Assembly (NCBI RefSeq): GCF_020551945.1
Contig: NZ_JAJBZH010000008.1
Span: 62,001 to 126,000, forward strand
Source: Cellulosimicrobium marinum
Lineage (GTDB): Bacteria > Actinomycetota > Actinomycetes > Actinomycetales > Cellulomonadaceae
Length of the DNA: 64,000 nucleotides
Reading direction: 5' to 3'
Each line of letters starts with the position of its first letter. Positions within the stretch are counted from its first letter, which is position 1. A program made the position numbers and the translations under genes. A model generated the notes under the pieces. That model did no database searches, had not been told where the DNA came from, and was given only the letters and a program-made list of their open reading frames with translations. Shown in pieces: positions 11,818-32,976 of this stretch.

Positions 11818-11906
11818 GGTGGGGTGAGGGCGCCGGGTCTACCATCCGCCGCTCGTCCCTCGCGGCTCCCGCCAGACCCACCACGACCCGGCGCCCTCAC
11901 CCCACC
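11818..11906 (-). repeat. Structured repeat element, copy A (candidate RNA or DNA hairpin)
   Basis: Arms 11818-11839 and 11885-11906 are a perfect 22-bp inverted repeat. Between them, on the minus strand, come GTGGTGGGTCTGGCGGGA, an inner stem GCCGC/GCGGC closing the loop GAGGGACGA, then GGATGGTA. Copies B and C share these unpaired segments while their stems differ in sequence yet still pair. It sits between the 3' ends of glgB and cnoX. It could be a transcribed structured RNA, a REP-like hairpin or a bidirectional terminator. Confidence 0.75.
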
Positions 11907-11944
11907 CACCCGGTGTCGTCGCCTCGCCGTCGCCTCGCCTCGCC

Positions 11945-12008
11945 CAAGCCTCGCCGTCGCCAAGCCTCGCCGTCGCCAAGCCTCGCCGTTGCCAAGCCTC
12001 GCCGTCGT
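11945..12008. repeat. Four tandem 16-bp repeats beside copy A
   Basis: Four copies of CAAGCCTCGCCGTCGC (the third and fourth with one change each), preceded by degenerate GTCGCCTCGCC runs. On the element strand this array lies 5' of copy A, just as a different 16-bp array lies 5' of copy C. Confidence 0.85.
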
Positions 12009-12182
12009 CCGGCTCGTCAGACGTCGACTCGCGTACGCTCTGCGGCCGCGACGAACCGCTCGGAACGCGTGTCGACGACCGCCTACGGGCGGTGAGTCTC
12101 GGCCGAGCGTGCGGGGTGGCCTCGGGTGCGAAGGGCGTCGAGCCGCGCTCGCGAACCGTCGGCCGGACGACCCGGGCGACGG

Positions 12183-12288
12183 CGCGGCAGCCCGAGCACC
12201 GAGGGCACCCCGCACGCGGACCCGACCCGGCACCGTTGAAAGACGCGGCAGCCCGAGCACCGAGGGCACCCCGCACGCGGACCCGACC
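12183..12288. repeat. Exact 45-bp direct repeat (12183-12227, 12244-12288)
   Basis: Two identical 45-bp copies 61 bp apart; an imperfect inverted match to their middle (CGTGCGGGGTGGCCTCGG) lies at 12108-12129, so either copy could form a hairpin with it. This closes a 634-bp stretch (11682-12315) with no convincing gene, between convergent glgB and cnoX. Confidence 0.85.
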
Positions 12289-12315
12289 TCACCCGATGTC
12301 GAGGCGGGCCGGGTG

Positions 12316-13266
12316 TCAGTACAGGCTGATCGCGAGGCGCTGGCGGGCCTTGCCGACGCGGGGGTCCGTCGGGCCGACGACCTCGAAGTAGTCGAGGAGC
12401 CGGACGCGGACCTTCTCCTTGCCGTCGGCGTCGGCGCTCGGCAGGAGGTCGAGGAGGCGGCCGAGGGCGTCGTCGACGTGACCGCCGAGCAGGTCGAGGT
12501 CGGCGATCGCGAGCTGGGCGTCGACGTCGGACGGTGCGTCGGCGGCGGCGGTGCGGACCGTGGCGAGGTCGGCGCCGCGGGTCCGCTGCAGGAGCCGGAC
12601 CTGGGCGAGCCCCGCGACGGCGAGCGTGTCCTTGGGGTCCTGCTTGATGGCCTTCTCGTACGCGGCGACGGCGGTGTCGAGGTCGTCGCGCTCGATCGCG
12701 TCGTACGCCTCCTGGTGGAGGGGAGGGAGCTCGGGCTCGGGCTCCGGTGTGTCCTCAGCGGTCGTGTCGGGCGCGGGCTGGTCGCCCTGTGCCGGGACCC
12801 GACCCGTCACGCCGTTGGCCTCGGCGGCCTCGAGCACCTGGTCGAGCACCGCCCGGACCTGCTCGGCGGGGGCGGCGCCCTGGAACAGCGGGAGGGGCTG
12901 ACCCTGGAGCACGGCGACGACGGTCGGCACGCCCTGGACCTGGAACGCGGCGGCGACCTGCGGGTACGCCTGCGCGTCGACACGGGCGAGGAGGAAGCGG
13001 CCGGCGTACTCCTCGGCGAGAGCGCCGAGGTCGGTGCCGAGCTGGGCGTTGGCCTGGTCCGTGGGGAGCCACAGCAGCACGACGACGGGGTACTGCGCCG
13101 AGTCCTGCACCAGCTGGCCGAACGTCTCGTCGGTGACGTCCACGACGTACCCGCCGGCCGCGGGCGGGCCGCCCTCCTCACCCGGCGGGGGTGCCTGCGG
13201 CCGGTTCAGCGCGGACAGGTCGACCGCGCCGCGCACGTCGAACGTGGGCTGGGTGGGTTCGCTCAT
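12316..13266 (-). CDS. cnoX: Thioredoxin-fold/TPR co-chaperone (CnoX/YbbN-like)
   Basis: 316 residues. An N-terminal thioredoxin domain (about residues 37-145) is followed by an acidic Pro/Glu linker (TPEPEPELPP) and TPR-like helices (YDAIERDDLDTAVAAYEKAIK and on). The thioredoxin active site is degenerate: VVLLWLPTDQAN stands where WCxxC would be, so it is not a dithiol oxidoreductase; family members act as holdases/co-chaperones that hand clients to chaperonins or DnaK. cis-Pro motif GVPTVVAVLQG is kept. ATG 13266 lies 6 nt after a TAGGAT -10 box, so the mRNA is probably leaderless. Convergent with glgB across the repeat region. Confidence 0.85.
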   Translation of the reverse strand: MSEPTQPTFDVRGAVDLSALNRPQAPPPGEEGGPPAAGGYVVDVTDETFGQLVQDSAQYPVVVLLWLPTDQANAQLGTDLGALAEEYAGRFLLARVDAQAYPQVAAAFQVQGVPTVVAVLQGQPLPLFQGAAPAEQVRAVLDQVLEAAEANGVTGRVPAQGDQPAPDTTAEDTPEPEPELPPLHQEAYDAIERDDLDTAVAAYEKAIKQDPKDTLAVAGLAQVRLLQRTRGADLATVRTAAADAPSDVDAQLAIADLDLLGGHVDDALGRLLDLLPSADADGKEKVRVRLLDYFEVVGPTDPRVGKARQRLAISLY

Positions 13267-13272
13267 GGCTGC

Positions 13273-13278
13273 ATCCTA
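13273..13278 (-). promoter_or_regulatory. -10 box of cnoX (TAGGAT)
   Basis: TAGGAT ends 6 nt before the ATG of cnoX and no ribosome binding site fits between: leaderless start. Confidence 0.55.
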
Positions 13279-13286
13279 CGGACGGA

Positions 13287-14312
13287 TCAGGCAGGGACGA
13301 CGGTGACGGCGACGTGCTCGGTCCCGAGGACCTGCACCTGCTCGTCACCTCCGGCCGGCGGCACGTAGATCGCGACGACGTCGACGTAGCGCACCCGCAG
13401 CACGTTGGTGGCGTCGGCGTCGCCGAACAGCGCCTTCTCGGTGTCCGTCGACGGGGGCACGACAGCACCCTCCTCGGCCGACATGGTCTCCAGCGACGTC
13501 ATCTCCCCCACCACGAGGGCGCCGCCGTCAGCGGTGCGCACGGCCCGGACGGGCTCGTCGGGGTCCGGCTCGAACTCGAGCTTGTACCGCCCTGCGGCGG
13601 GTTCGAGCGCGTCGGTCCAGAGCTTCGACCGCTCCGCGAGGAGCGAGCGGAACGAGTCGTCGGGGAACGCGTCCGCAAAGCTCGACGACGACCCGACGTT
13701 GAGGACGTCGGCGTACTGCGCGATCGCGTCGGTCGGTGACATGAGCAGGGTGTCGTCGTCGGGCGCGACGGCCTCGCTGCCGAGGGTGGGGGCCGCGAAG
13801 CTGGGCAGCGTCGTGCTGGGGAACAGGCGGACCCATCCCCAGAGCTCGTACTGGTCGCGCGCGCTCGCCTGCTCGTGCACGGTCAGGCGCGGCGACTGGA
13901 GCGACTCCGGCTGGACGCTGACGGCGTACGACGTGCGCGGCCAGGTCTGCGTGGTCGGCACGACGACCTGCTGCACGTCGGTGGGGAGCTCGGTGACGAG
14001 CTCGGCGTCGCCGCGGGCCTTCGCGACCTCGAGCTGGCTCGTGCGGATCGCGAGCGCGGGTCCGGTGACCCGCTCCTCGAGCAGGCTGGGGTCGTTGGCC
14101 TCGTCCGCCTCCTGGAGCGCGGCTCCGACAGCGGCGAGCACGTCGGCCTCCTGCGTCTCGTCGAGCACGGGGGGCGGCGTCGACGGGCTGGCTTCGGGCT
14201 GCGGGGTGGGCAGCGGCGCCGCACAGCCCCCGACGAGCAGGAGTCCGGCGGTGGCCGTCGCGACGGCGATCCGCCCGCGACGGCGGATGGTGGTGCGTGC
14301 GGTGGTGGTCAT
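13287..14312 (-). CDS. Secreted lipoprotein of unknown function
   Basis: 341 residues. An Arg-rich n-region, a hydrophobic stretch and the lipobox LLLVGGC place it as a lipoprotein anchored on the outer face of the membrane (Cys at about residue 30), followed by a Pro/Ser-rich spacer. The remaining ~300 residues look like one or two globular domains with repeated alternating patterns; I do not recognise a catalytic motif. Its ATG overlaps the stop of the upstream two-TM gene by ATGA, so the two are translationally coupled and probably act together at the cell surface. It ends 21 nt from the cnoX start. Confidence 0.8.
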   Translation of the reverse strand: MTTTARTTIRRRGRIAVATATAGLLLVGGCAAPLPTPQPEASPSTPPPVLDETQEADVLAAVGAALQEADEANDPSLLEERVTGPALAIRTSQLEVAKARGDAELVTELPTDVQQVVVPTTQTWPRTSYAVSVQPESLQSPRLTVHEQASARDQYELWGWVRLFPSTTLPSFAAPTLGSEAVAPDDDTLLMSPTDAIAQYADVLNVGSSSSFADAFPDDSFRSLLAERSKLWTDALEPAAGRYKLEFEPDPDEPVRAVRTADGGALVVGEMTSLETMSAEEGAVVPPSTDTEKALFGDADATNVLRVRYVDVVAIYVPPAGGDEQVQVLGTEHVAVTVVPA

Positions 14313-15526
14313 CGGGTCGGGTCCTTCGTCTCGTCCGTCTCGTCGCGCACGGGGTCGGTCGTCGACGCGTCGGCGTTGAAGCCCCAGGCGCGTCGCCAGG
14401 CGTCGGCTCGCGTGCTGGCGCTGTCCTGGGCGGTCGGGTGGCCCTGGGCCGGGTCGACGACCGGCTGGGCCGCGGTCTTCGGCCGGCGCCCACCGGGCAC
14501 GACGGGGATCTGGCCCGTGAGCCAGGCGCGCCGCTGCTTGGGCTTCGCCTGCTGCTGGGCGTTGCGCTCCGCCTCCTCCCGCTCACGCAGCTCGCGGCGG
14601 GTGAGCATGCGGACCTGGGCGGTGTGCGTCGTCGGCTCCCCGTTCTCGTCGCTCGGGGTTGCGTCGTCCGGCCGCGTGCCGGTGCCCGACGCCGCGTGCC
14701 CGCCCGCGTCGGTCCCGTCGCCGACGACGGGGGTGGCGGCGGTGGCGGCACGCCGCTCGGACGAGCGGCGGCGCTTGGGCCGCAGGCTCGCGGCGCCGAT
14801 CCCGAGGCCGAGGAGGACGAGCACGACTCCGCCGACGACGCCCGGCCACAGCCACGGCGTCTCGACGTCGCGCGGCCAGGAGAGGGTGAGGGTCGGTGCC
14901 TGCGCGTCCTCGCCGACTCCGGCGGCCAGGACCTGCCAACGGCCGGGCTGGTCGGACCAGCGCAGCGTCGTGGAGCCCTCGCCGCTCGACTCCTGGACCC
15001 ACATGTCCGAGCCCGCGGGGTCGACGCCGACGACCGGCTCGGCCTCCGCAGCCTCGTCGCCGGCAGCCTCGTCCTCGGCCGGGGTCTCCCCGTTGGCGGG
15101 TGTCTCCTCCTCGGCTGGAGTCTCCCCGTCCGCGGGTGCCTCCTCCTCCGCGGGCGCCTCCTCCTCCGCGGGCGCCTCCTCCTCCGCGGGGGCGGGCTCG
15201 GCGGCGCTGACCGCGAGGCGGTCCCAGTCGGCGAGGCCGGTGACCACGCCGTGCGGGTCCTCGCCCACCCAGCCGGTCACGTCGACCTCGCGGCCGATCG
15301 CCAGGGTCACCGGCTGCTCGCCCGGTGCGGTCGCGGTGATCGTCACGTCCTCGGCCACGAGGTCGAGGACCCCGGGCTCGGTGACGAGCATCGTGCCGTC
15401 GCCCGTGTACGACGTCGCCGCCACGACGGTGTCGCTGTCCCTCCACACCGTGGCGGAGGCGACGCCGAGGCCCACGGCGACGAGCCCTGCCACGAGCAGG
15501 ACGACGGCGATGATTCGTTGCAGCAC
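14309..15526 (-). CDS. Two-TM membrane protein with acidic heptapeptide repeats
   Basis: 405 residues, function unknown. TM1 is at the N-terminus (IIAVVLLVAGLVAVGLGVASA), TM2 at about residues 235-255 (WPGVVGGVVLVLLGLGIGA). The extracytoplasmic part holds a run of seven-residue repeats rich in Ala-Glu-Glu-Pro (AEEEAPA type, DNA 15060-15190), and the C-terminal ~150 residues are cytoplasmic, basic and rich in Arg/Gln (RRELREREEAERNAQQQ). GTG 15526 is chosen because GAAGGGA lies about 8 nt upstream and TM1 begins right after it; the frame is open farther up but without signal features. Overlaps the lipoprotein gene by ATGA. Confidence 0.8.
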   Translation of the reverse strand: MLQRIIAVVLLVAGLVAVGLGVASATVWRDSDTVVAATSYTGDGTMLVTEPGVLDLVAEDVTITATAPGEQPVTLAIGREVDVTGWVGEDPHGVVTGLADWDRLAVSAAEPAPAEEEAPAEEEAPAEEEAPADGETPAEEETPANGETPAEDEAAGDEAAEAEPVVGVDPAGSDMWVQESSGEGSTTLRWSDQPGRWQVLAAGVGEDAQAPTLTLSWPRDVETPWLWPGVVGGVVLVLLGLGIGAASLRPKRRRSSERRAATAATPVVGDGTDAGGHAASGTGTRPDDATPSDENGEPTTHTAQVRMLTRRELREREEAERNAQQQAKPKQRRAWLTGQIPVVPGGRRPKTAAQPVVDPAQGHPTAQDSASTRADAWRRAWGFNADASTTDPVRDETDETKDPTR

Positions 15527-15831
15527 CGAGCTTTCCCTTCGTCGATCGACGTTCCAGGATAGGTGCGAACGAGCCGCCGGATCGACCCTGGCAGCCGTGG
15601 CACGGATCCTCACGAACCGTTCACGACCTGCGCGCGAACCGGCCCCACCCCTCGACCCGAGGATGGGGGCGGGCGTGCCGCCGCGGACCCATTCCGGGTA
15701 TTCAGGACAGCGGGCGGACCGTATCCTGGACCGAGCACGTGGGGCCGCGGACCGCGCCCTTCGGGCTGCGCCGGAGGGGACGAGTCGCCCGGCGCGGCCG
15801 CCCACGACGAACCACACCGGAGGTCATCGAC
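15527..15831. other. Divergent intergenic region, 305 bp
   Basis: Lies between the two-TM gene and the DivIVA-like gene, so it must hold promoters for both. A TATCCT at 15722-15727 is the best -10 candidate for the rightward gene; the GGAGG at 15819-15823 is its ribosome binding site. No gene seen. Confidence 0.5.
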
Positions 15832-17316
15832 GTGTCCGACGAGCGCACGCTCTTCCCCATCACCATGCGCGGCTACGACCGCGTCCAGGTCGAGGCCCAG
15901 CTCGCGAAGCTGGAGAGGGCGCTCGAGGAGGCCCGCGGGCGGCTCGAGGCCGCCGACGGTCGCGTCATGCAGCTGACGACGGACCTCTCGGACGCGCAGC
16001 GCCAGCTCCGCGAGTCGGACAAGCCGTCGTACGCGGGCCTGGGCTCGCGCATCGAGCAGCTGCTGCGCTCGGCGGAGGAGCAGTCGGCCGACATCCTCTC
16101 GCAGGCGAACTCCCAGGCTGCGGACGTCATGGCGCGCGCGAAGCTCTCTGCCGGCCAGGTGCGGTCGCGAGCGGAGAACGAGGTCGGCGAGCTGCTCAAC
16201 AGCGCGCGGCTCGAGGCGGAGGAGGTCCGGGCGACCAGCCGTTCCGAGGCGGAGAGCACGCTCGTGGGTGCGCAGCGACGTGCGGAGGAGCTGGTCGGGT
16301 CGGCGGAGCGCGAGGCGGCCCGCATCCAGAGCGCCATCGCGACGGAGGAGAGCGAGCGCCGTGCGTCGCTGGAGCGCGAGCTCGGCACGCTGCGCGCGTC
16401 GGTGGAGCGTGAGACGACGGAGCTGCGCGTCACCACCGAGCGCGAGGCCGCGGAGCTGCGCGCCCGGGTCGCGGCGGAGACGGCGGCCCAGCGCGAGTCG
16501 GCGGATCGGGAGACGGCGGAGCTGCTGGAGAACGCGCGGCGCGAGGCGCAGCGCACGGTGGACGAGGCGCAGCGTCAGGCGTCGGAGGCCGCGAACGCGG
16601 TGACGGCCGAGATGGAGGAGCTGCGCGAGAGGGCGCGCACGGCGCTGGCCGAGGCGGAGCTCGACGTGGTGCGCCGCCGCGAGGACGCCGAGCGGGAGAA
16701 CGCGGAGCGTCACGCGACGGCGAAGGCGGAGACGGAGAAGCTGGTCGCCACGGCGGAGGAGCACGCGGCCGAGGCGGAGAAGCGCGTCGCGCTGGCGCTC
16801 GAGCAGGCGGAGAAGGTGCGCGCCGAGTCCGACGCGTACGTCAAGGACCTCATGGCCACGGCCCGGCGCAACGCGGACCGGATCGTCGCGGAGGCGCGCG
16901 AGTTCGCCGACCAGACCGTCGGCGACGCCCGGGTCGAGGCGGAGCAGCAGCGCACGGCCGCGCAGCGCCAGCTCGAGGACCTCACGCGGCAGCACGACTC
17001 GATCAACACCTACCTCGACGAGCTGCGCGGACTGCTGGGCGACCCGAACGAGGGGACGAAGCAGTCGGCCCGCTCGTCGGCGGTCCCGGCGGGCACCCCG
17101 GCGCAGCAGGCGCGGGCCGCACAGCTCCTCACGGCCGAGTTCCCGGTCGTGCAGGACGAGGCCACCCCGGTCGGCACCGTGACGGCACCCGAGGGCGCCA
17201 CGACGAGCGGTCCCCCTGCGAGCGGCGCGGCACGCCCCGCGCAGGGCGGGGCCCCGAAGGACACCGCGAGGAAGCCCCCGGCCGACGACGAGGCCGAGAC
17301 CCCGGCTTCCGCCTGA
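15832..17316 (+). CDS. DivIVA-domain coiled-coil protein (Scy/Wag31-like)
   Basis: 494 residues. The N-terminus FPITMRGYDRVQVEAQLAKLE matches the lipid-binding DivIVA N-domain; residues ~20-420 are nearly continuous heptad coiled coil rich in Glu, Ala, Arg, with a short break near SYAGLGSRI. The tail (about 440-494) is Ala/Pro/Thr-rich and disordered. Proteins of this kind scaffold polar growth or cytoskeletal assemblies in actinobacteria (Wag31, Scy, FilP). GTG 15832 follows GGAGG by 8 nt. Which paralogue it represents is uncertain; Wag31 itself usually sits by the dcw cluster, so this is more likely a second, Scy-like protein. Confidence 0.8.
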   Translation: MSDERTLFPITMRGYDRVQVEAQLAKLERALEEARGRLEAADGRVMQLTTDLSDAQRQLRESDKPSYAGLGSRIEQLLRSAEEQSADILSQANSQAADVMARAKLSAGQVRSRAENEVGELLNSARLEAEEVRATSRSEAESTLVGAQRRAEELVGSAEREAARIQSAIATEESERRASLERELGTLRASVERETTELRVTTEREAAELRARVAAETAAQRESADRETAELLENARREAQRTVDEAQRQASEAANAVTAEMEELRERARTALAEAELDVVRRREDAERENAERHATAKAETEKLVATAEEHAAEAEKRVALALEQAEKVRAESDAYVKDLMATARRNADRIVAEAREFADQTVGDARVEAEQQRTAAQRQLEDLTRQHDSINTYLDELRGLLGDPNEGTKQSARSSAVPAGTPAQQARAAQLLTAEFPVVQDEATPVGTVTAPEGATTSGPPASGAARPAQGGAPKDTARKPPADDEAETPASA

Positions 17317-17317
17317 C

Positions 17318-17755
17318 ATGCCCGACGAGTCGCGGGCCGCTGCCGACGCCGCGCGCTGGCGTCGGCAGCGGACGGAGGCCGCGGAGCAGCAGCAGCGTGC
17401 GCTGGACCGGCGACGTGCCCAGGAGACCACGGCCGCGCGCGAGCTGATCTCGACGTTCGTCGCGCAGGCCCGCGAGCGTGGACTCGCGCCGGAGCCGTTG
17501 CGCGCGCGGGCGTTCGACGGCTCGGCGACGTACCGCACGCCCGTCAGCGGGTGGTACCTACGCCGTAACCGCTCGGTCGCGGTGGGCACGGACGAAGAGT
17601 TCTACGTGCTGAGCGTGCCCGGCGGCCTCGCGGCACGTCTGCGGGGTGCCGCGCTCACGCCGTCGGACCCGCCCCTGGTGCTGGGCAAGGGCGGGCGCGA
17701 CGGCGAGTCGATCGACCTCGCCGACGCGCTCGCCCTCGTGCTCGACGGCGCGTAG
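17318..17755 (+). CDS. Conserved actinobacterial protein, function unknown
   Basis: 145 residues, beginning 1 nt after the DivIVA-like gene's stop, so cotranscribed. The first ~55 residues form a charged helix (RWRRQRTEAAEQQQRALDRR), the rest a small alpha/beta domain with WYLRRNRSVAVGTDEEFYVL. No Cys, no TM segment, no catalytic motif seen. Its tight linkage suggests a partner role with the coiled-coil protein; this is inference. Confidence 0.75.
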   Translation: MPDESRAAADAARWRRQRTEAAEQQQRALDRRRAQETTAARELISTFVAQARERGLAPEPLRARAFDGSATYRTPVSGWYLRRNRSVAVGTDEEFYVLSVPGGLAARLRGAALTPSDPPLVLGKGGRDGESIDLADALALVLDGA

Positions 17756-17798
17756 CCGCTCCGCGGGGGCCGGCCACGCGGCGTCGGGCCCGGCGGTC

Positions 17799-18587
17799 TC
17801 AGGCCGTGGCGCGGGCGAGGAGGTCGGCGAGAGAGTCCGCGACGGCGGCCGGCTCCTCCACGGCGCTCATGTGCCCGACCTTCGGCACCTGCACGAGCTG
17901 TGCGTCCCGCGCTGCGGACGCCATGTGCTCCGCCTCGGCGACGGGGGTCACCTGGTCCTCCTCGCCGACGACCACGGCGACGGGGCCGCCGAAGGTGTCC
18001 AGCACGCCGGTGCGGTCCGGCCGTGCCGCCATGGCCCGCTGGGACCAGGCGACGCCCGCGGGACGCTGCACGCGGATCCACTCCTCCAGGCGCGCGGTGA
18101 GGTGCGGGCGCAGGGTCGCGCTCGTCTCGCCGAGCAGCACGCCGGGCATGCCGAGGACGGCGTCGACGGACTGCTCGGACGTCACGCGGTCCGCGACGCG
18201 CAGCCGGTTGTCCCGTGCCTCGTCCGTGTCGGCGGTCGACTTCGTGTCCACGAGGCCGAGCCCGGCCACGAGGTCGCGGTGGCGTTCCGCGAGGGCCAGG
18301 GCGACGTACCCGCCCATCGAGAGCCCGGCGACGACGGCGCGGCGCACCCCCGCGGTGTGCAGGGCCTGCGCGACGGCGTCCGCGGCGGTGTCGAGGGACG
18401 GCGGCTCGGCTCCGAGCGGGCTCTGGCCGAGGCCCGGCAGGTCGAGGGCGAGCACCGTCGGCTCCCCCGGCAGCGCGGCGGCGACGTCCTCCCACATGCG
18501 GTGGTCCAGCGGGAACCCGTGCAGCAGCACCAGAGGCGTGCCGTGCCCGTCGCGCAGCGTGTAGGTCTCGAGCCGTGGCGTGGTCAC
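17799..18587 (-). CDS. Alpha/beta-hydrolase fold protein
   Basis: 262 residues of the common alpha/beta-hydrolase type. The oxyanion motif HGFPLDHRMW (about residues 21-30), nucleophile elbow GLSMGG (Ser ~95), acid VVVGEEDQVTP and the catalytic His of KVGHMSAVEEP are all intact. Substrate unknown; close in pattern to 3-oxoadipate enol-lactonase-like and general esterases. GTG 18587 follows AGGAGAG by 6-7 nt. Convergent with the 145-residue gene; followed on the same strand by a second, unrelated hydrolase upstream. Confidence 0.85.
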   Translation of the reverse strand: MTTPRLETYTLRDGHGTPLVLLHGFPLDHRMWEDVAAALPGEPTVLALDLPGLGQSPLGAEPPSLDTAADAVAQALHTAGVRRAVVAGLSMGGYVALALAERHRDLVAGLGLVDTKSTADTDEARDNRLRVADRVTSEQSVDAVLGMPGVLLGETSATLRPHLTARLEEWIRVQRPAGVAWSQRAMAARPDRTGVLDTFGGPVAVVVGEEDQVTPVAEAEHMASAARDAQLVQVPKVGHMSAVEEPAAVADSLADLLARATA

Positions 18588-18664
18588 GTCGTTCTCTCCT
18601 CGGGTCGGGTCGTGCCCCGGGTACGGGTCACGACCCCCACGCTGCCACGTCCGGCCCGACGCCG

Positions 18665-19522: not shown

Positions 19523-19559
19523 CGCCGTCGAGCCTAGTTGCTCGGGGGCGCCTGCGTGC

Positions 19560-19865
19560 TCAGCCGGGCCGACGGCGCCCGCGCGCCGTCCAGCAGGCCG
19601 AGTGCCAGTGCCGGCGGTGCTCGAGCGCGGTCTGCGCGCCGAAGAACGAGTCCTCCTGCCACGCGACGACGTGGCCGGTGCCCGGCGGGATCGTCTGGTT
19701 GCAGCCCGGGCAGAGGTAGGACTTGTCCCCTCCGCGGACCGTGCGGACGGTCCACTCGCCGTCCGCACCGGACTCGCGGCGCGCCCCGCCGAGGGCGCGG
19801 TCGAGGTCGAGCGGCGGGGGTTCCGCGCCCCAGGGGCGCTTGCGGGAGGGGCGACGCGACGGCAT
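19560..19865 (-). CDS. Small zinc-binding protein (CPGC...HWHSACW)
   Basis: 101 residues. After a basic N-terminal tail (MPSRRPSRKRPWG), a single CPGCNQTI pair and a downstream HWHSACW form a likely zinc site (C-x2-C...H...C). The pattern is that of a conserved small actinobacterial protein often misnamed ATP/GTP-binding protein; no nucleotide-binding motif is visible here. ATG 19865 chosen; it lies upstream of the alpha/beta hydrolase on the same strand with a 37-nt gap, so they may be one transcript. Confidence 0.75.
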   Translation of the reverse strand: MPSRRPSRKRPWGAEPPPLDLDRALGGARRESGADGEWTVRTVRGGDKSYLCPGCNQTIPPGTGHVVAWQEDSFFGAQTALEHRRHWHSACWTARGRRRPG

Positions 19866-20059
19866 CCGTCCATGATGACCCGGCGAGGGCCCCGGGATCG
19901 ACCCCGGCCCGCTCCCAGCCGCCGTCCAGACGAGAGGGCTAGAGTGTCCGGGCCGGTGCTGCACCCGGCGTCCGACCGTCCTGCCGGGACGAACGGCCGG
20001 CCTGCGGCACAGACCCCGACGGCGTGCGCGTCGTCCCCTCGACCGAAGGACTCCTTCAC

Positions 20060-21022: not shown

Positions 21023-21055
21023 CGTCTGCACAGTGACGTCTGCACAGTGACGTCT
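21017..21055. repeat. 14-bp tandem repeat across the FKBP stop codon
   Basis: CAGTGACGTCTGCA twice and a partial third copy. The stop TGA of the FKBP gene is in the first copy; each unit centres on the palindrome GACGTC. It ends 18 nt before the terminator stem. Confidence 0.85.
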
Positions 21056-21072
21056 CGCCGGTGATCGCCGGC

Positions 21073-22795: not shown

Positions 22796-24010
<1,215 letters not shown>

Positions 24011-24018
24011 TCAGGCGA

Positions 24019-26193
24019 CTACAGCATGCAGCTGACGCAACCCTCCACCTCGGTCCCCTCCAGCGCCATCTGGCGGAGACGGATGTAGTAGAGCGTCTTG
24101 ATGCCCTTGCGCCACGCGTAGATCTGCGCGCGGTTGACGTCGCGCGTGGTGACCGTGTCCTTGAAGAACAGCGTGAGGCTCAGGCCCTGGTCGACGTGCT
24201 GCGTCGCGGCGGCGTAGGTGTCGATGATCTTCTCGTACCCGATCTCGTACGCGTCCTCGTAGTACTCGAGGTTGTCGTTCGTCAGGTACGGCGCCGGGTA
24301 GTAGACGCGACCGATCTTGCCTTCCTTGCGGATCTCGATCTTCGACGGCACCGGGTGGATCGAGGACGTCGAGTTGTTGATGTAGGAGATCGAGCCGGTC
24401 GGCGGGACGGCCTGGAGGTTCTGGTTGTAGATCCCGTGCTCCATGACGGAGGCCTTGAGGGACTTCCAGTCGTCCTGCGTGGGGATGTGCACGCCGGCGT
24501 CGGCGAAGAGCTGGCGCACGCGCTCGGTCTCGGGCTGCCACACCTGGTCCGTGTACTTGTCGAAGTACTCGCCGCTCGCGTACTTCGAGTCCTCGAACCC
24601 GCCGAACGCGCGCCCGCGCTCGATCGCGAGCCGGTTGGAGGCCGCGATCGCGTGGTAGGCGACGGTGTAGAAGTAGATGTTCGTGAAGTCGACGCCCTCG
24701 GTGGAGCCGTAGTGGATGCGCTCGCGGGCGAGGTAGCCGTGCAGGTTCATCTGGCCGAGACCGATCGCGTGCCCGGACTCGTTGGCCCGCTTGACCGACG
24801 GGACGGACTCGATGCTCGTCTGGTCCGAGACGGCGGTGAGCGCACGGATCGCGGTGTCGATGGTCTTCGCGAAGTCGGGCGAGTCCATCGTCTTCGCGAT
24901 GTTCAGCGAGCCGAGGTTGCAGGAGATGTCGCGGCCGACGTGGTCGTACGAGAGGTCCTCGTTGAACGTCGACGGCGTGGAGACCTGGAGGATCTCGGAG
25001 CACAGGTTCGAGTGGGTGATGCGACCCTTGACCGGGTTGGCCCGGTTCACGGTGTCCTCGAACATGATGTACGGGTAGCCGGACTCGAACTGCAGCTCGG
25101 CGATGGTCTGGAAGAACTCGCGCGCCTTGATCTTCGTCTTGCGGATGCGGGAGTCGTCGACCATCTCGTCGTACTTCTCGCTGATGGAGACGTCGGCGAA
25201 CGGCTTGCCGTAGACGCGCTCGACGTCGTACGGCGAGAAGAGGTACATGTCCTCGTTCTTCTTGGCGAGCTCGAACGTGATGTCCGGGATGACGACGCCG
25301 AGGGACAGCGTCTTGATGCGGATCTTCTCGTCGGCGTTCTCGCGCTTGGTGTCGAGGAAGCGCAGGATATCCGGGTGGTGCGCGTGCAGGTACACCGCAC
25401 CGGCGCCCTGGCGCGCACCGAGCTGGTTGGCGTAGGAGAAGGAGTCCTCGAGGAGCTTCATCACGGGGATGACGCCCGACGACTGGTTCTCGATGTGCTT
25501 GATGGGCGCGCCGTGCTCGCGGATGTTGCTCAGCAGCAGGGCGACGCCGCCGCCGCGCTTGGAGAGCTGCAGCGCGGAGTTGATGCCGCGCGCGATGGAC
25601 TCCATGTTGTCCTCGATGCGCAGCAGGAAGCAGGAGACGGGCTCGCCGCGCTGCGCCTTGCCGACGTTGAGGAACGTGGGCGTCGCCGGCTGGAAGCGGC
25701 CGGAGATGACCTCCTCGACGATGTCGAGCGCCTGCTGCTCGTCGCCGTCGGCGAGGCCGAGCGCGACCATACACACACGGTCCTCGAAGCGCTCCAGGTA
25801 GCGCTTGCCGTCGAACGTCTTCAGCGTGTACGACGTGTAGTACTTGAACGCGCCGAGGAACGTCTCGAACCGGAACTTCTTCGAGTACGCGAACTCGAAG
25901 AGCGACGTCACGAACGCGCGGTCGTACTTCGCGAGGACGGCCGGGTCGTAGTACTTGTGCTCGACGAGGTAGTCGAGCTTCTCCTGCAGGTCGTGGAAGA
26001 ACACGGTGTTCTGGTTGACGTGCTGCAGGAAGTAGGCGCGCGCGGCCTCGCGGTCCTTGTCGAACTGGATCTCGCCGTTCGGACCGTAGAGGTTCAGCAT
26101 CGCGTTGAGCGCGTGGTAGTCGAGCTGCGTGCCGCTCAGCGCGACCTGCTGGACCGCGGGCGCGCCGCCGTCCGCGACGGGGCCCGCGATCAC
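24019..26193 (-). CDS. nrdE: Class Ib ribonucleotide reductase, alpha subunit
   Basis: Reduces ribonucleoside diphosphates. About 724 residues, normal for NrdE. Seen: the active-site Cys in [28 protein letters not shown], the NLCSEI segment with catalytic Asn-Cys-Glu, the loop-2 region [25 protein letters not shown], and the C-terminal CVSCML redox pair that is re-reduced by NrdH. No N-terminal ATP cone, as expected for class Ib. GTG 26193 gives a GTGA overlap with nrdI; a TTG at 26220 would add 9 residues with a slightly better upstream GGGAC. Third gene of nrdH-nrdI-nrdE. Confidence 0.95.
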
Positions 26194-26621
26194 GCCGGAA
26201 TCTGTGACTGTCGTTGCCAAAATCGTCCCAATCCGTCGCGGACGCGCGCGGCGTCCTCGGCTGTTCCCAGGAGTTCGAAGGCGTACAGGTAGGGCACCTG
26301 GCACTTCGCGGAGATGATGTCGCCGGCGATGCAGTACGCCTCGCCGAAGTTGGTGTTGCCCGCCGCGATGACGCCGCGGATCAACGACCTGTTGTGCACG
26401 TCGTTGAGGAACTTCACGACCTGACGCGGGACGGCGCCGCCCTCGTTGCCGCCCCCGTAGGTGGGGACCATGAGCACGTACGGCTCGTCGACCCGCAGGA
26501 ACCCGTCGGTGGGCCGCAGCGGGATGCGTCGTACGTCGATGCCCGACGCGGGGAGGTCGAGCCGCTGGACGAAGCGGTGCGTGTTCTCGCTGACGCTGGA
26601 GAAGTACACGAGCGACCCCAC
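26190..26621 (-). CDS. nrdI: Flavodoxin-like NrdI
   Basis: Supplies the oxidant that assembles the Mn-tyrosyl radical of NrdF. 143 residues; FMN-binding features [13 protein letters not shown] (phosphate loop), [11 protein letters not shown] and [13 protein letters not shown] are intact. GTG 26621 lies 8 nt from GGAGG. Ends in a GTGA overlap with nrdE. Confidence 0.94.
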
Positions 26622-26697
26622 GGGGACGCACCTCCGTCCTGCTGAACCTGCGGTGCTGCCGACCGCCGCGGTCTGCTGACCGCCGCGTGCCCTGCCG

Positions 26698-26943
26698 TCA
26701 GGCGACGACCGGGGCGACCTTCTGCGCGAGCGCGTTGATCTGGTCGGGGCGGAAGCCCGACCAGTGCTCGTCGCCGGCCACGACGACCGGGGCCTGCAGG
26801 TAACCGAGCCCGCGCACCAGCTCGAGCGCCTCCGCGTCCTGGCTGATGTCCACCACCGTGTACTCGACGCCCTTCTTGTCGAGAGCGCGGTACGTCGCGT
26901 CGCACTGAACGCAAGCCGGCTTGCTGTAGACCGTGACGCTCAT
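26698..26943 (-). CDS. nrdH: Glutaredoxin-like NrdH redoxin
   Basis: Electron donor for NrdE. 81 residues with the redox pair CVQC (residues 11-14), YTVVDI, the cis-Pro motif APVVV and the C-terminal WSGFRPDQI typical of NrdH. ATG 26943 has GGAG 6-7 nt upstream. First gene of the operon; the NrdR boxes lie 130-180 nt upstream. Confidence 0.95.
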
Positions 26944-27072
26944 GGGGTGACTCCTCGTCTCTCGTCCGGAGGGTGGTCCTCGGGGAGGGAGAAGAGTCTC
27001 TGACCTCGAAGGACACCGGTGGAACTACGTCTGTGTGATTCCCGGGAAGGCCTTCGCCCCCTGGGTGTGCAA

Positions 27073-27120
27073 CCACTATACCTAGGGGTTCGGACACCGC
27101 CACCCCACTAGATGTCGTGG
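27073..27120 (-). promoter_or_regulatory. Two putative NrdR boxes upstream of nrdHIE
   Basis: CCACTATACCTAGGGG (27073-27088) and CCACTAGATGTCGTGG (27105-27120) resemble the 16-bp NrdR box and start 32 bp apart, three helical turns, which is the spacing expected for paired boxes. On the minus strand box 1 contains TATAGT, a likely -10, so bound NrdR would block the promoter. nrdR itself is not in this window. Confidence 0.55.
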
Positions 27121-27585
27121 TCCGAGTTCACCCGCTCGCGTGTGCTAGGAGGCACGGGACCATGTTCCCAGGGCCCTCTGACACCCCCGCCGGGCACCCT
27201 CCGTCCACCGTCCGTCCACCGCCGCGACACCGCCGGATCGGCACGGTGGCGCGGCCCACGCGCCGTCGTCCACAGGGTGGGGACGACGGCGCTCCACACC
27301 CTGTGCGCGCCCGTCCCGCACTCCCCCGGCACGTCCGCGGCCCCCGTGACCCCGCTCCGCGAACGGCACCAACCGGACACACCGCCGCGCCCCGCGCCCG
27401 CACACGTCCGGATCCTTCGGCGTGTCGCCCCGCGGCACCCGTCCGGGTCGACGGTGCGACGAACGTCACCAGGCCCCTCCTCGGCACTCCACGCGGGGTG
27501 TCGGGACACACGCGGGGCGCCGGCGGTCCGCGCATGGTTCACGCGTAGGCGCGACTCCCCCGGCGCGCCGGTGGAGGGTGCCGCG
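27121..27585. other. Intergenic region without a recognisable gene
   Basis: About 465 bp between the nrd control region and the 3' end of the beta-glucosidase gene. Open frames here lack ribosome binding sites and any family pattern. Contains CGTCCACCGTCCGTCCACC-like short repeats only. Confidence 0.6.
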
Positions 27586-29073
27586 TCAGACGGTCTCGTC
27601 CACCCCGGGGAGGACGTTCGACGTCGCGAGCCGGCGGTACCAGTGCGCGGAGTCCTTCCAGGTGCGCTCGAGCGTGTCGTAGTCGACGCGGATGATGCCG
27701 AACCGGCGGTCGTACCCGTACCCCCACTCGAAGTTGTCGAGCAGCGACCAGGCGAAGTAGCCGCGCACGTCGGCGCCGGCGTCGATCGCGGCGCCGACGG
27801 CGTCGACGTGGTCGTGCAGGTAGGCGACGCGGCGGTCGTCGTGCACACGGGGCGTGCCGTCGTCGTCGTGCGTGACCTCGTCGGCGAACGCGGCGCCGTT
27901 CTCGGTGACCATCATCGGCTGGTCCGGGTAGGTCGCGGCGACTGACGTCAGGAGCTCGGTCATGCCGGCGGGCTCGATGTTCCAGCCCATCGCGGTGTAC
28001 GGGCCGGGCTGCTGGACGAACTCGACGTCGGTGACGCCGATCCACGGGCTGTGGCTCGAGGCGCCGTGGCCGTCGTTCTCGGACCGTTCGCCCGTGCCGT
28101 CGTGGTGGCGCACACGGACGGTCGAGTAGTAGTTCACGCCGAGGATCGACAGCGGCTGACGGACGAGGTCGAGGTCGCCGTCGTGCACGAACGACCAGTC
28201 GCTCACGTGCGCGGTGTCCGCGAGGAGGTCGGCGGGGTACTCGCCGTCGAGGATCGGGCCGAGGAACGCGCGGTTGGCGAGCGCGTCGATCGTGCGGACG
28301 GCGTCGAGGTCGGCGTCGGACGCGGGGTCGTCGGGGCGGATGACGTGGAGGTTGAGCGTGACCGAGGTCGTCACGTCGTCGCCGAGCTCGTCGCGGATCG
28401 CCGCGACGGCGAGCCCGTGGGCGAGGTTGAGGTGGTGCACGGCCGCGAGCGCGGCGGCGGGCTCGGTGCGACCGGGGGCGTGCACGCCGGAGCCGTAGCC
28501 GAGGTAGGCGGAGCACCAGGGTTCGTTGAGCGTGGTCCAGGTGTCGACGCGGTCGCCGAGCTCGCGGGCCATGTGGCGGGCGTACTCGGCGAACGCGAGG
28601 GCGGTGTCGCGGTGGGCCCACCCGCCGGCGTCCTCGAGCTCCTGGGGGAGGTCCCAGTGGTAGAGCGTGACGACGGGCCGGACGCCCTTCTCGATCAGGG
28701 CGTCGACGAGCCGTGAGTAGAAGGCGACGCCCTCGGGGTTGAGGGGGCCGGTGCCGCCGGGCTGGACGCGCGACCAGGAGATGGAGAAGCGGTAGGCGCC
28801 GAGGCCGAGGTCGGCGATGTGCTGCACGTCCTCGGCCCACCGGTGGTAGTGGTCGTCGGCGACGTCGCCGGTGTCGCCGCCGAGGGTCTTGCCGGGGGTG
28901 TGGGAGAAGGTGTCCCAGATGGAGGGGGTGCGGCCGCCCTCGGCGGCGGCGCCCTCGATCTGGTAGGACGCGGTGGCGGAGCCCCACAGGAAGCCGGCGG
29001 GGAACGTCCGCCTGCCCGACGTCGCGGGGCCGGGTGCGGGCTCGGGTGCTCGGGGGGTGGTCTCGGTGGTCAC
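27586..29073 (-). CDS. GH1 beta-glucosidase
   Basis: Hydrolyses cellobiose and other beta-glucosides, probably in the cytoplasm as there is no signal peptide. 495 residues. The GH1 N-terminal signature [15 protein letters not shown], acid/base Glu in [13 protein letters not shown] and nucleophile Glu in [10 protein letters not shown] are present; the aglycone-site [13 protein letters not shown] also. GTG 29073 follows GAGGA by 6 nt. A LacI/CebR-like operator lies 48-61 nt upstream, and nagA ends 113 nt upstream on the same strand. Uptake genes are not in the window. Confidence 0.93.
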
Positions 29074-29120
29074 GGGATCCTCGCTGATCGGTGTCGGCCT
29101 GCGGTCGGGCGAGCGCGGCG

Positions 29121-29134
29121 TGGTAGCGCTTCCA
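29121..29134. promoter_or_regulatory. LacI/CebR-like operator upstream of the GH1 gene
   Basis: TGGTAGCGCTTCCA matches its own reverse complement at 12 of 14 positions and the cellobiose-repressor box TGGGAGCGCTCCCA at 12 of 14. Its place between nagA and the GH1 gene suggests derepression of the glucosidase by cello-oligosaccharides. Confidence 0.65.
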
Positions 29135-29185
29135 CGCCGGGCGGTGCCAGGGTACCCCGGCACCGGACCGCCCGGCACCGGGAGG

Positions 29186-30487
29186 TCAGCCGCCCGAGAC
29201 GAGCGTCCCCCCGCGCAGCACCCGGCGCACCCGGAGATCCGCGTCCGTGACCACGACGTCGGCACGACGGCCCGGCACGAGCCCGCCCACGTCGTCACGC
29301 CCCAGCACCCCCGCCGGGGTCCACGACGCAGCCCGGACCGCGTTGACGAGCGCGACGCCGGCTGCCACTGTCTCGCGCACCACGTCGAGCAGGTGGTACG
29401 TCCCGCCCGCGATGGACCCGCCCTCGGCGAGCCGCGCGACGCCGTCCGCGACGGTCACGCTCATCGGCCCGAGGTCGTAGCGGCCGTCCGGCATCCCCGC
29501 GGCAGCCATCGCGTCGGTGACCAGGGCGACGGCGTCCGGCCCGGCGACCGCGCCGTCGGTGACGTGCGCCCCGACGAGCTCCACGACGCTGCGGGTCGTC
29601 CCGTGGGCGAGGTGCGTCCCGTCCGCGACGAGCTCGACCACCATCTCGCCGCGCGCGGCCGCCGCGAGGCACGCGGCGATCGGGCCGGGCTCACGGTGGT
29701 GCAGCGGGCGCATCCCGTTGAACAGGTGCGTCGCGGTCAGGCGCACGCTGTCGCGCCCGGCGGCCGCGAGCGCGGCGACGCCGGCGGCGATCGCCTCCTC
29801 GGTCTGTTCGGTGCTCGCGTCCGTGTGCCCGATGGACGGCAGCGCGCCGACCTCGACGAGCGTCTCGATCACGCCGCCCGGCCCGACGACGCCCGGCACC
29901 TCCGGCGCGACCGTCATCGTCCGCAGGTGCCCCCGGGCGGCGGCCGCGATCTCCCGCACGAGCGCGGGGTCGCCGTCGAGCATGTCGTGCGGGTTCTGCG
30001 CACCGCACCGCACCTCGGACAGGAACGGGCCCTCGAGGTGGATCCCGGCGAGCTCTCCGGCGTCCGCGAGGTCGGCGAGCGTCGCGACCCGTGCGAGGAG
30101 GACGTCGCGCGGTGCCGTCACGAGGGACGCGACGAGGCTCGTCGTGCCGTGCCGCAGGTGCTCGCGTGCCGCGACCCGCGCGTCGTCGGCGCTCGTCGCG
30201 TCGGGGAAGCTCGCGCCGCCGCCGCCGTGGTCGTGCACGTCGACGAGGCCGGGCAGGATCGTGGAGCCGTCGGTGGTGCCGGGGTCGTCGAACCCGGCGG
30301 CTGCGAGCTCCGCCCGCGGCCCGACCCAGGCGATCCGCTCCCCCGCGACGACCACGGCCCCGTCCTCGACGACGCCCGTGGGGGTCACCACCCGGCCCGT
30401 GAGGACGGTCGCCGACGGTGCAGCGCCTCCCCCGGCCCGCTCCGCGGTCTGCTCGTCGGGACGGTGCGCTCGCTGCTCGTCGGCCAT
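29186..30487 (-). CDS. nagA: N-acetylglucosamine-6-phosphate deacetylase
   Basis: Removes acetate from GlcNAc-6-P in amino-sugar catabolism. 433 residues, amidohydrolase superfamily: the strand-1 metal motif appears as [11 protein letters not shown], the metal-binding Glu in IHLEGPFLS, then [24 protein letters not shown] and the catalytic Asp in [11 protein letters not shown] ~25-residue hydrophilic N-terminal extension precedes the core. ATG 30487 chosen. nagB is not adjacent. Upstream of the GH1 gene on the same strand. Confidence 0.92.
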
Positions 30488-30530
30488 GCCCTCATTGTGG
30501 CGCACTTCGTACGCCCGGCGCACAAATCCG

Positions 30531-31055
30531 TCAGGGTCCGGTCGTCGCGCGCAGGACGCGTGCGGCGCCCCGCGCGAGGTGCCGGGCGAACGCCCGCTGG
30601 ACCAGGGGCAGCACCGGCGCGACCGGCCGCAACCACCACAGCGCCGGACGGCTGAAGAGCTCGACGCGCCACCACAGGTCGCCCGCCGCGTCGCGCTCGA
30701 CGGCGAACATCTCCTCTCCGACGAACGCGTGGCCGGGCAGCGTGCCGTACCCGAACGCGACGCGCTCCTCGCTCCGCTCGACCCACACGACCTCGCAGCA
30801 CTCGCGCAGGTGGAGCGGGCCGACGCCGAGCAGCGTCGTGACCCGCACGCCGGGCGCCGCCTCCGGCGCGTCGGTCTCGACCCGCAGCCGGGCCGCCGCG
30901 TGGACCTGCCACCGCAGGAGCGCGTCGCCGAGGCGGTCGAGGTCTTGGGGCGGGTGCGCGTGCCGCGACAGCCGGACCTGCACGCGCACGTGCCGGTAGC
31001 CGTCCGGGCGCGCACCCGTGCGGGTCGCCCCCACCTCGGGGTAGGTGAACGTCAT
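30531..31055 (-). CDS. DUF1990 family protein
   Basis: 174 residues. FTYPEVGATR at the N-terminus and the FGYGTLPGHAFVGEEMFAVERD block are typical of DUF1990. Family function is not established; members often lie beside YndJ-like membrane proteins, as here. Starts within 4 nt of the end of the frameshifted YndJ-like gene (ATGA overlap). Confidence 0.85.
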   Translation of the reverse strand: MTFTYPEVGATRTGARPDGYRHVRVQVRLSRHAHPPQDLDRLGDALLRWQVHAAARLRVETDAPEAAPGVRVTTLLGVGPLHLRECCEVVWVERSEERVAFGYGTLPGHAFVGEEMFAVERDAAGDLWWRVELFSRPALWWLRPVAPVLPLVQRAFARHLARGAARVLRATTGP

Positions 31056-31946
31056 GCGGCGCTCCTCGTGCGCTCGGGCCGGCGTCCGCCGGCGGTCGTG
31101 GCCCGGAGCAGGCGGAGCCCCAGGACGGTGCAGAGCACGAACCCGACGGCGTTCGCCAGCCCGTGCGTGGCGGCCATGACACCGAGTCCCGGGTGCGGCA
31201 CCGCGAAGGCCTCGCCCACCGCCCACCACACGGCGAGCAGCATCGAGACGGCGACCGTGGCGCCCCCCGTCCCGAGCAGGACCCGCGCGACCGCCCCCCC
31301 GCCCGGGAGGCGCGACGAGGGCGCGCGTCGTCGCGGCCGCCGTCGACCACAGCGCCGTGGTGAGCACCAGGGCGCCGACGAGCTCGGCGACGTCGCCCAG
31401 GAAGTACCCGACGAGCACGAGGAGGGTGCCCACCGGGACTCCCCACGCTCCCGCGCGCGCGAGCTGGTCGTCGGGCGCGAGGCGCGCCACGGTCCCCGCG
31501 ACCAGCGCGGCACCGAAGCCCGCGTAGAGCATGTGCGGCACGGTGAGGGCGAGATACGTGCCGGAGAACCCGAGGAGCCCCCACCCCGCGCGCTCGGCGA
31601 CGAGGGCGCACGCCCCCACCGCGGGCGTCCCGAGGGCGACGACCGTCGCGAGCACCTGAGCGGCCTCCGCATCCCGGCGCCCGCCGTGCAGCGCGGCCCA
31701 GCCCGTGCGGACGGCGGCGCCGAGCAGCACGAGCGTCGCCGCGGCGAAGACGGTCGCGCACGCGGTGGCGGGAGCACCGCGCGGCAGCATGAGGCTCGTC
31801 GCGCCCACAAGCCCCGCGAGCGGCCACAGCGGGTTCAACGGCGCGGGCACGGTCGGGCTGCCCAGGAGCCGCAGACCGAGCGGGAGCACCACGACCATCC
31901 CGAGCGCCACGAGGGCCGTGACGAGCGCGGCCGCCCCCGGGCTCAC
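31052..31946 (-). pseudogene. YndJ-like membrane protein, interrupted by a frameshift at a G7 tract
   Basis: The N-terminal two thirds (from GTG 31946; several TM helices such as LVTALVALGMVVVLPLGL and ALTVPHMLYAGFGAALVAG) and the C-terminal third (VLLGTGGATVAVSMLLAVWW, then THGLANAVGFVLCTVLG) lie in different frames. They join at a run of seven C (plus strand, 31294-31300): with six, the protein reads PPGRGAVARVLLGTGG without a break. Length from start to stop is 895 nt, one more than a multiple of three. The HGLANAVGF motif near the end is typical of the YndJ family. Either a sequencing error, a true disruption, or a phase-variable tract. GTGA overlap with tetR upstream and ATGA with DUF1990 downstream argue for a once-intact operon. 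Confidence 0.8.
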
Positions 31947-32644
31947 CGCTCCCCCTCGCCGTCGGGCGCCGCGTCGGGCCCCGGGCGGACGGCCCGCAGG
32001 AGCCGCAGCGCGTCGTCGACCACCCCGCGAGCCACCGGGAGGCGGGACAGCCGGACCACGCTCCCGACGAGCGCCGCGCCGCCCGAGACCAGCCGCCGCG
32101 TCCGCGCGAACCCCGCGGACGTGTCGTGCACCCAGAACAGCGTCACGCCGAGCTGCCCCAGCCACAGCAGCTCCGGCAGCTCGGCGCGCAGCCGCGCCGG
32201 CACCGCGGGCTCCGCCCCGGCGACGACCTCCTCGAAGAGCGCGCGCGACCGGTGCCGCGCGGGCGCCGACACCGCCGAGAACGGGCTGGCGTCCGACCCC
32301 GGCCGGATCGCGACGGACACGAACTCCGCCCCGAACGCGTGGAACGGGGCGAACGCGTCCACCGACGCACCCCAGACGCCGCGCACCCGCTCCGCGAGCG
32401 TCCCGCCCGCCGACAGCAGCGGCTCGGCGAGCGCCGCGTGCTCGTCCTGGACCTCGAGGTAGAGCTCCTGCACGAGCGCGTCCTTCGACGGGAAGTGGTA
32501 GTACGCGTTGCCCGTGCTCACCCCCGCCTCCGCCGCGATCGCCCGCATCGTCGTCCGCTCGTAGCCGACGTCGCGCAGCATCCGGATCGCGACGTCCCGC
32601 ACCAGCGCCCGCGTCCGCTCGGACTTCGGCGTCGCCCCGCTCAT
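31943..32644 (-). CDS. TetR-family transcriptional regulator
   Basis: 233 residues. The N-terminal helix-turn-helix (TRALVRDVAIRMLRD, then TTMRAIAAEAGVSTGNAYYHFPSKDALV, residues ~10-55) is a clear TetR_N domain; the rest is a helical ligand/dimer domain with no known ligand. ATG 32644 chosen at the domain start. Followed by the YndJ-like and DUF1990 genes with 4-nt overlaps, which it probably controls along with itself through the palindrome 26 nt upstream. Confidence 0.9.
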   Translation of the reverse strand: MSGATPKSERTRALVRDVAIRMLRDVGYERTTMRAIAAEAGVSTGNAYYHFPSKDALVQELYLEVQDEHAALAEPLLSAGGTLAERVRGVWGASVDAFAPFHAFGAEFVSVAIRPGSDASPFSAVSAPARHRSRALFEEVVAGAEPAVPARLRAELPELLWLGQLGVTLFWVHDTSAGFARTRRLVSGGAALVGSVVRLSRLPVARGVVDDALRLLRAVRPGPDAAPDGEGER

Positions 32645-32669
32645 CGCGCGCACGCCCCGACGGCATATC

Positions 32670-32681
32670 TGAACATGTTCA
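32670..32681. promoter_or_regulatory. TetR operator palindrome
   Basis: TGAACATGTTCA, a perfect 12-bp palindrome flanked by A/T-rich sequence (unusual in this genome), just upstream of the TetR gene. Likely autoregulatory site. Confidence 0.7.
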
Positions 32682-32767
32682 AAAACTACCACGGCCGTTC
32701 TGCTCCCGATCCGATCGACCCGTGCGGGCAGACGTGGGAGACCCGTGGGGCCGGCGCCGGACGGGCG

Positions 32768-32879
32768 AACCGCAAGGCTGGAGGACCGCAAGGCTGGACG
32801 ACCGCAAGACTGAACGACCGCAAGACTGAACGACCGAGTGGGTGGACGACCGAGTGGGTGGACGACCGAGTGGGTGGAC
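32768..32879. repeat. Seven tandem 16-bp units 5' of copy C
   Basis: Units start every 16 bp from 32768. All keep ACCG near the start, but the inside changes in blocks: two or three units with AAGGCTGG, two with AAGACTGA, three with GTGGGTGG. The last GTGGGTGGAC is the outer part of the left arm of copy C, so upstream units could pair with the right arm too. Confidence 0.88.
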
Positions 32880-32976
32880 GGGACGGGTTCTGGCGGGTCG
32901 TGGCGGGTCTGGCGGGAGGACCCGAGGAACGAGGGTCCGGATGGTAGACCCGCCAGGACCCGTCCCGTCCACCCAC
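32870..32976 (+). repeat. Structured repeat element, copy C (candidate RNA or DNA hairpin)
   Basis: Arms 32870-32899 and 32947-32976 pair over 30 bp with one U-G wobble (32889 with 32957). The core reads GTGGCGGGTCTGGCGGGA, inner stem GGACCC/GGGTCC around the loop GAGGAACGA, then GGATGGTA. It lies antisense between nucS and tetR. Confidence 0.78.

Follow-up and report, generated by a model that had tools for sequence, protein, structure and literature searches.

The window analysed here, a 64,000-nucleotide stretch of the Cellulosimicrobium marinum genome (RefSeq assembly GCF_020551945.1, contig NZ_JAJBZH010000008.1, positions 62,001 to 126,000 of the forward strand), contains three copies of an intergenic hairpin element, designated A, B and C. 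The initial annotation of the window had described these with outer stems of 22, 19 and 30 bp, and all three were found where it had placed them. They are listed below with the neighbouring genes, which were called using our own codon-usage caller, while the bit scores derive from a covariance-model search of 87 selected sources with an alignment fitted to the model.

11818..11906, minus strand: copy A, whole hairpin with a 22 bp outer stem (covariance-model score 84.0 bits, and folding)
11885..11906, minus strand: copy A outer stem, 5' arm (sequence)
11867..11884, minus strand: copy A unpaired conserved segment GTGGTGGGTCTGGCGGGA (sequence and alignment)
11848..11866, minus strand: copy A inner hairpin, comprising GCCGC, loop GAGGGACGA and GCGGC (sequence and alignment)
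11840..11847, minus strand: copy A unpaired conserved segment GGATGGTA (sequence and alignment)
11818..11839, minus strand: copy A outer stem, 3' arm (sequence)
23893..23979, plus strand: copy B, whole hairpin with a 19 bp outer stem (86.7 bits, and folding)
23893-23911 and 23961-23979, plus strand: copy B arms, with the inner hairpin at 23930-23952
32870..32976, plus strand: copy C, whole hairpin with a 30 bp outer stem (90.9 bits, and folding)
32870-32899 and 32947-32976, plus strand: copy C arms, with the inner hairpin at 32918-32938
9441..11681, plus strand: gene with its 3' end toward copy A (own gene caller)
12316..13266, minus strand: convergent gene on the other side of copy A (own gene caller)
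24019..26193, minus strand: gene with its stop codon toward copy B, ~40 nt off (own gene caller)
33036..33731, minus strand: gene with its stop codon toward copy C, ~60 nt off (own gene caller)

On the core strand, which is the strand given for each copy, the hairpins fold with z-scores of -7.4 (A), -5.4 (B) and -8.2 (C), and 0/200 shuffles folded equally well. Each unit is composed, in order, of a G-rich 5' arm, GTGG-N-GGGYC-TGGCGGGA, an inner stem of 4-7 bp, the loop GAGGNACGA, the inner-stem partner, GGATGGTR and a C-rich 3' arm. The outer stem has a median length of 27 bp in a set of 201 distinct copies, from which identical duplicates had been removed, as had copies lying 60 nt or less from the end of a locus. 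These stems had been called unrelated, which mostly holds for their sequence but not for their composition: arms past ~5 bp mostly differ between copies (mean identity 0.49 at arm positions 6-20 over 465 pairs from 31 copies of this genome, with 12 pairs reaching 0.8), but share a content of 57% G in the 5' arm and 54-55% C in the 3' arm. Likewise, the unpaired letters, said to barely change, are kept with some variation in copies found by the covariance model, but their constancy is partly built in where a pattern was used to find the copies.

In 48/201 copies the eight innermost pairs include one or more that are non-Watson-Crick, frequently in the form of a short internal loop lying a few pairs away from the core. 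GA directly before the stem is accompanied by GA or N-GA directly after it (58/76 versus 9/104, related copies not being collapsed). A K-turn at the stem base was rejected, with the 3' GA mostly 0 or 1 nt off the stem and seldom 3 (again with related copies not collapsed), as was a G-quadruplex in the apex, where the ViennaRNA G4 option altered 0/9 folds. Tandem partial copies of the left half of the element, and two copies in tandem, were seen at L025 and L150.

Covariation and strand preference

Both stems covary and the structure is under selection. In 98 distinct sequences 94.4% of cells were paired, compared with 58.5% in shuffles and 32-43% with slid partners, although the first value is inflated by an alignment fitted to the model, with the slid controls still far lower. 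Doubly changed cells numbered 613 in the same sequences, compared with 178.5 in shuffles, while an earlier reference alignment used 48 of 71 reference stretches. This confirms for both outer and inner stems the covariation that had been proposed from the three copies. The inner hairpin rests on this covariation, because minimum-energy folds frequently rearrange the apex. Among close orthologs (no more than 4 differing pairs, 19 loci) there were 16 double Watson-Crick differences and one other double difference, with single changes comprising 20 G-U, 4 A-C and 28 mismatches, a tally to which several genomes at one pair may add more than one difference. At the copy A locus one pair is T-A, T-G or C-G in different genomes, while at the copy B locus the stems are strongly divergent among relatives, yet paired, and some of these differences may reflect replacement of one copy by another.

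The two wobble pairs that had been taken to favour one strand, 23899/23973 in copy B and 32889/32957 in copy C, are indeed G-T and T-G, respectively, on the core strand. Across 119 distinct regular stems, counted from pair 9 outward, core-strand wobbles in the outer stem amounted to 69 G-U versus 10 A-C, with the two penalised equally in stem extension and with the 48 copies carrying an early unpaired position excluded; an earlier count of 64:13 was discarded because stem extension there favoured G-U. This bias was seen between convergent genes (21:3), where both neighbours are antisense (20:6) and where both are sense (6:0), the remainder being in copies without clear context, and also in the inner stems, with 14 G-U versus 3 A-C in 56 distinct stems. 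Furthermore, within 25 nt of the element the flanking core-strand sequence is rich in A and poor in T in each of the three gene contexts, whereas background intergenic DNA is balanced. The strand bias in all contexts, together with these flanks, therefore indicates that one strand matters regardless of neighbour direction. The suggestion of an RNA of the core strand is thus borne out in its strand preference but not in expression, with no promoter signal found for the element in what was a weak test, and with both neighbours lying opposite in 35/103 loci.

Distribution, gene context and turnover

Although the architecture described from three copies is shared, the genome of origin contains at least 42 copies, with 29 detected using a core pattern, 37 using a looser one and five other places added by the covariance model, while the core pattern read backwards gave 0 matches in this genome. 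A strict pattern identified the element in 17/17 genus genomes searched, at 1-49 copies per genome. A covariance model was built and run on this genome and its relatives, as the initial annotation had proposed, and showed that the family extends patchily through the order (21/297 sampled genomes and 12/95 genera), while in a phylum sample of 396 genomes it matched this genome and one same-order genome, with none outside the order; copy counts and absences in this search are lower bounds because 11-15 candidates were scored per genome. Genera among the matches listed, taken from named contigs in the pattern search, include Cellulosimicrobium, Luteimicrobium, Isoptericola, Actinomyces and others. 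Contigs labelled Sphaerisporangium cinnabarinum ATCC 31213 (L038, L050, L078, L084) carry copies resembling those of Cellulosimicrobium and may be mislabelled.

We examined placement at 103 loci with clear context (128 collapsed loci, 25 left out), of which 45 are convergent, 35 have the core antisense to both genes, 19 have it sense to both and 4 are divergent, with the antisense excess over sense giving p 0.04. Background intergenic regions of at least 150 nt, from 245 gene pairs that were not ortholog-collapsed, comprised 26 convergent, 129 co-directional and 90 divergent. Within the set of distinct copies, 51/201 had no clear gene context, 38 lying inside an open reading frame call and 13 at edges. 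The stop codon of the facing gene lay within 60 nt in 53/80 loci, compared with 19/64 for the same-strand gene. The earlier view that the copies bear no fixed relation to neighbouring genes was therefore not upheld, since they are found at the 3' ends of genes and for the most part not in promoter regions, though their orientation is variable. Some Actinomyces copies take up almost all of the space separating a pair of convergent stops. No U-tract was evident, with the longest T-run within 15 nt never exceeding 2 on either strand at 114 loci, and inspection by eye of one single-contig genome, in which the origin was not located, gave no pattern of replication-strand bias.

Ten neighbour genes from 8 loci belong to varied families, with several matches below curated cut-offs: two MurE-like, which are one locus seen in two Actinomyces genomes, and one each galactokinase-like, FasR-like, ABC-F-like, pyrophosphatase-like, NrdD, TruA, acyl-CoA dehydrogenase-like and citrate synthase. 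The gene beside copy B (24019..26193) was matched in 17/17 genus genomes.

Other repeats are found nearby. Tandem arrays with units of 15-21 nt, differing per site, flank copies A and C on both sides (11690-11808, 11932-12007, 32769-32880 and 32972-33012), with none listed adjoining copy B. One unit of ~21 nt, GAGGTAGAACC-N-N-GGTC, is present at window positions 11690-11808 and at L010, L012, L255 and other genus loci, where it lies 3' of stop codons in the same direction as the gene and, between convergent genes, occurs in inverted arrays; the unit is itself able to form hairpins. A dispersed sequence, GGGTCCGCGTGCGGGGTGCCCTCGGTGCTCGG (window 12180-12290, and other genomes), is often situated ~350-500 nt to the 5' side of the element and may represent a repeat in its own right.

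Comparison of relatives revealed both filled and empty sites, with flanks ~93-96% alike. At the copy B locus the element is present in six genomes (this one, L172, L173, L175, L181 and L184) and absent from eight in which the arrangement of neighbours is preserved (L174, L176-L180, L183 and L186), while L182 and L185 carry other sequence and L187 is unreadable. At the copy A locus it is present in 11/17 genomes and absent in L200, L202 and L204, with a 3' arm remnant retained in L192, other sequence in L201, and L203 unreadable. At two sites chosen within a group of recent expansion, 3/14 and 6/12 genomes carry the element. In this group the hairpin lies inside a longer repeat (approximately -560 to +250) that is partly common to up to ~11/93 locus groups, and orthologs may share the outer stem yet differ in the inner one, which suggests conversion between copies. 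Hairpins are near-identical at many loci.

The element was also found both ways round in 7/33 orthologous locus groups, counting groups that matched in both flanks and had a single element per locus; two-element loci were excluded, as pairs from them are trivial. One reversed group has murE and galactokinase-like genes as its neighbours in either orientation, with 92% identity over 297 residues in the galactokinase-like one. L039 and L081 have the same pair of convergent genes around the element, and no less than about 20-30 nt of flank is reversed along with it. In L142, inspection by eye shows an L088-type arm left as a remnant next to an oppositely oriented copy, which suggests turnover. 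Element pairs within one locus, mostly opposite and a few hundred bases apart, were seen at L018, L029, L033, L107, L134, L233 and L236. Insertion into the loops of existing terminators was rejected as the general case, since locus A retains native hairpins alongside the element, the exception being L204, which has a bare G-rich hairpin there.

Comparison with known families

The initial annotation had recognised no known RNA or repetitive extragenic palindrome (REP) family, and this stands, with no Rfam match at gathering score, no Y1 transposase and no GTAG or CGTC tag found. In the Rfam scan of the window only a tRNA reached gathering score, and permissive scans of the element loci gave matches below it only. 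A truncated ZMP/ZTP riboswitch match at L141 (3009-3081) falls below threshold, with 35.5 bits against a gathering score of 39. The Actinomyces-1 RNA (RF02928), which among named candidates comes closest in host, is likewise a structured RNA candidate of the same Actinomyces genomes but differs in sequence and loci: its model matches 4/4 Actinomyces genomes, the 8 loci fetched there have no element core and 0/6 element loci match. The element does not fit a riboswitch or leader RNA, being divergently placed at only 4/103 loci, with variable orientation and varied neighbours, and it differs from a miniature inverted-repeat transposable element in lacking terminal inverted repeats common to all copies, arms past ~5 bp being mostly unshared. 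Literature searches, including for Cellulosimicrobium intergenic repeats, returned no description of the element.

According to PMC3733652, REP families of the GTAG and CGTC types are multicopy palindromes, many of which lie 3' of genes, and their stems show G-T pairs as well as alternative residues that remain complementary. Stems in most GTAG repeats measure 6-9 bp, and the GTAG families carry the tag and are tied to REP-associated tyrosine transposase (RAYT) genes, while CGTC families lack a dedicated transposase. Our element shares the multicopy hairpins, many downstream of genes, but it has a constant apex, variable stems of median 27 bp and no Y1 transposase in the genus, and neither tag is among the most enriched flank words, the base favouring GA before and (N)GA after. 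It is REP-like in habit, but is not a REP. RAYT and reverse-transcriptase helpers were unsupported. On contig C10 of the genome of origin there are three reverse transcriptase domain matches (L208, L211 and L212), two of them ~1.5 kb apart.

Two further systems bear comparison. Integron attC sites are hairpins defined by structure at gene 3' ends, with one strand active. Unlike these, the element has a constant apex, and the neighbours scanned belong to ordinary families. Intrinsic terminators lacking a U-tract are similar as GC-rich hairpins after stop codons, often between convergent genes, and the element does place a stable hairpin soon after the stop codon, with no U-run following; it differs in its conserved asymmetric apex and strand-specific wobble bias.

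Interpretation of the folded strand

Throughout, we infer function from structure. Tentatively, and as a reading still somewhat short of probable, we favour a structured element that disperses among the gaps 3' of genes, is recognised through its folded core strand by a putative factor and plays an orientation-tolerant boundary role. The core strand would fold as single-stranded DNA (or RNA) and its constant apex would be bound by the putative factor, while the long stem may merely hold the apex up, and its sequence would be free because it need do no more than this. Apex recognition may serve the spread of the element, and the hairpin could double, in either orientation, as a boundary ending or blocking transcription between genes; we propose that resident copies stay folded because of this boundary action.

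In favour of this reading are the two covarying helices with their three conserved unpaired stretches, the compensatory changes among close orthologs, the core-strand excess of G-U over A-C whatever the neighbour direction, the 3' placement, and the variation in copy number, presence and orientation among relatives. Several observations weigh against this dispersal. The Y1-type transposase domain (PF01797) was found in 0/17 genus genomes, where the control matched 5/14 known genomes, and a reverse transcriptase domain in only 3/17. Viral contigs searched with the exact pattern, and plasmid and phage records searched with one 77-nt query, gave no match. Empty sites were found, but their boundaries are not sharp and no target duplication was seen, and the reversed copies may have arisen by inversion rather than by fresh insertion. 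A purely selfish copy, moreover, need not remain paired. Among close orthologs single mismatches (28) exceed compensated pairs (16), and pairs changing on both sides (22 versus 19.8 in shuffles, with 6/500 reaching it) are not distinctive alone. When all copies are pooled, the innermost 10, 14 and 18 pairs give G-U:A-C counts of 28:46, 48:52 and 60:54, with no excess, which we attribute to the 48/201 copies with early unpaired positions.

An alternative is a structured RNA module. Here the hairpin would form when core-strand transcription, either antisense or arriving from a convergent gene, enters the gap, and once the apex was bound, transcription would be halted short of running antisense into the facing gene. 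The G-U over A-C bias (69:10, and 20:4 in close orthologs), the nearness of the facing stop (within 60 nt in 53/80 loci versus 19/64 for the same-strand stop) and the excess of cores antisense to both genes (35 versus 19, p 0.04) are all in its favour. The reversal in 7/33 locus groups contradicts a set direction, however, while no promoter signal was found and in 35/103 loci neither neighbour would transcribe the core strand, and we consider this module unlikely, if a serious contender. It is because of the reversed orthologous copies that the dispersing element is put first and the facing-gene barrier lowered. That same reversal would fit a plain bidirectional terminator without a U-tract, with the apex as decoration or a minor protein site, as would the convergent enrichment and 3' placement, the great stability of the stems on both strands and the Actinomyces copies nearly filling the gap between convergent stops. 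Hairpin 3' ends without U-rich tracts have also been described in Streptomyces clavuligerus (PMC8269248). A plain terminator would have no need of a conserved apex or strand preference, however, native hairpins are still found next to the element at locus A, and stems of at least 18 bp are present in 36/37 core hairpins compared with 8/25 other intergenic hairpins, at loci picked for holding the element; we regard it as rather improbable. Stems kept perfect not by selection but by a mutational process, namely template switching inside the palindrome, would fit the unusually long, near-perfect stems of arbitrary sequence and the tandem partial copies at L025, but such a process would neither favour G-U over A-C by 69:10 nor preserve a short inner stem and loops, and we judge it very improbable indeed.

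Returning to the dispersing element, we can see, with rather more reserve than for that reading itself, a possible new class of strand-specific structured nucleic acid, with a free stem and a factor-bound constant apex, that would be spread and flipped by a putative enzyme system and act as an orientation-tolerant transcription boundary. Few bacterial repeats show as clearly that evolution keeps the folded strand and not the DNA sequence. With at least 42 copies, natural empty and reversed sites and a defined apex, the element offers a testable case of either a mobile system without a known enzyme or 3'-boundary marking in high-GC bacteria.

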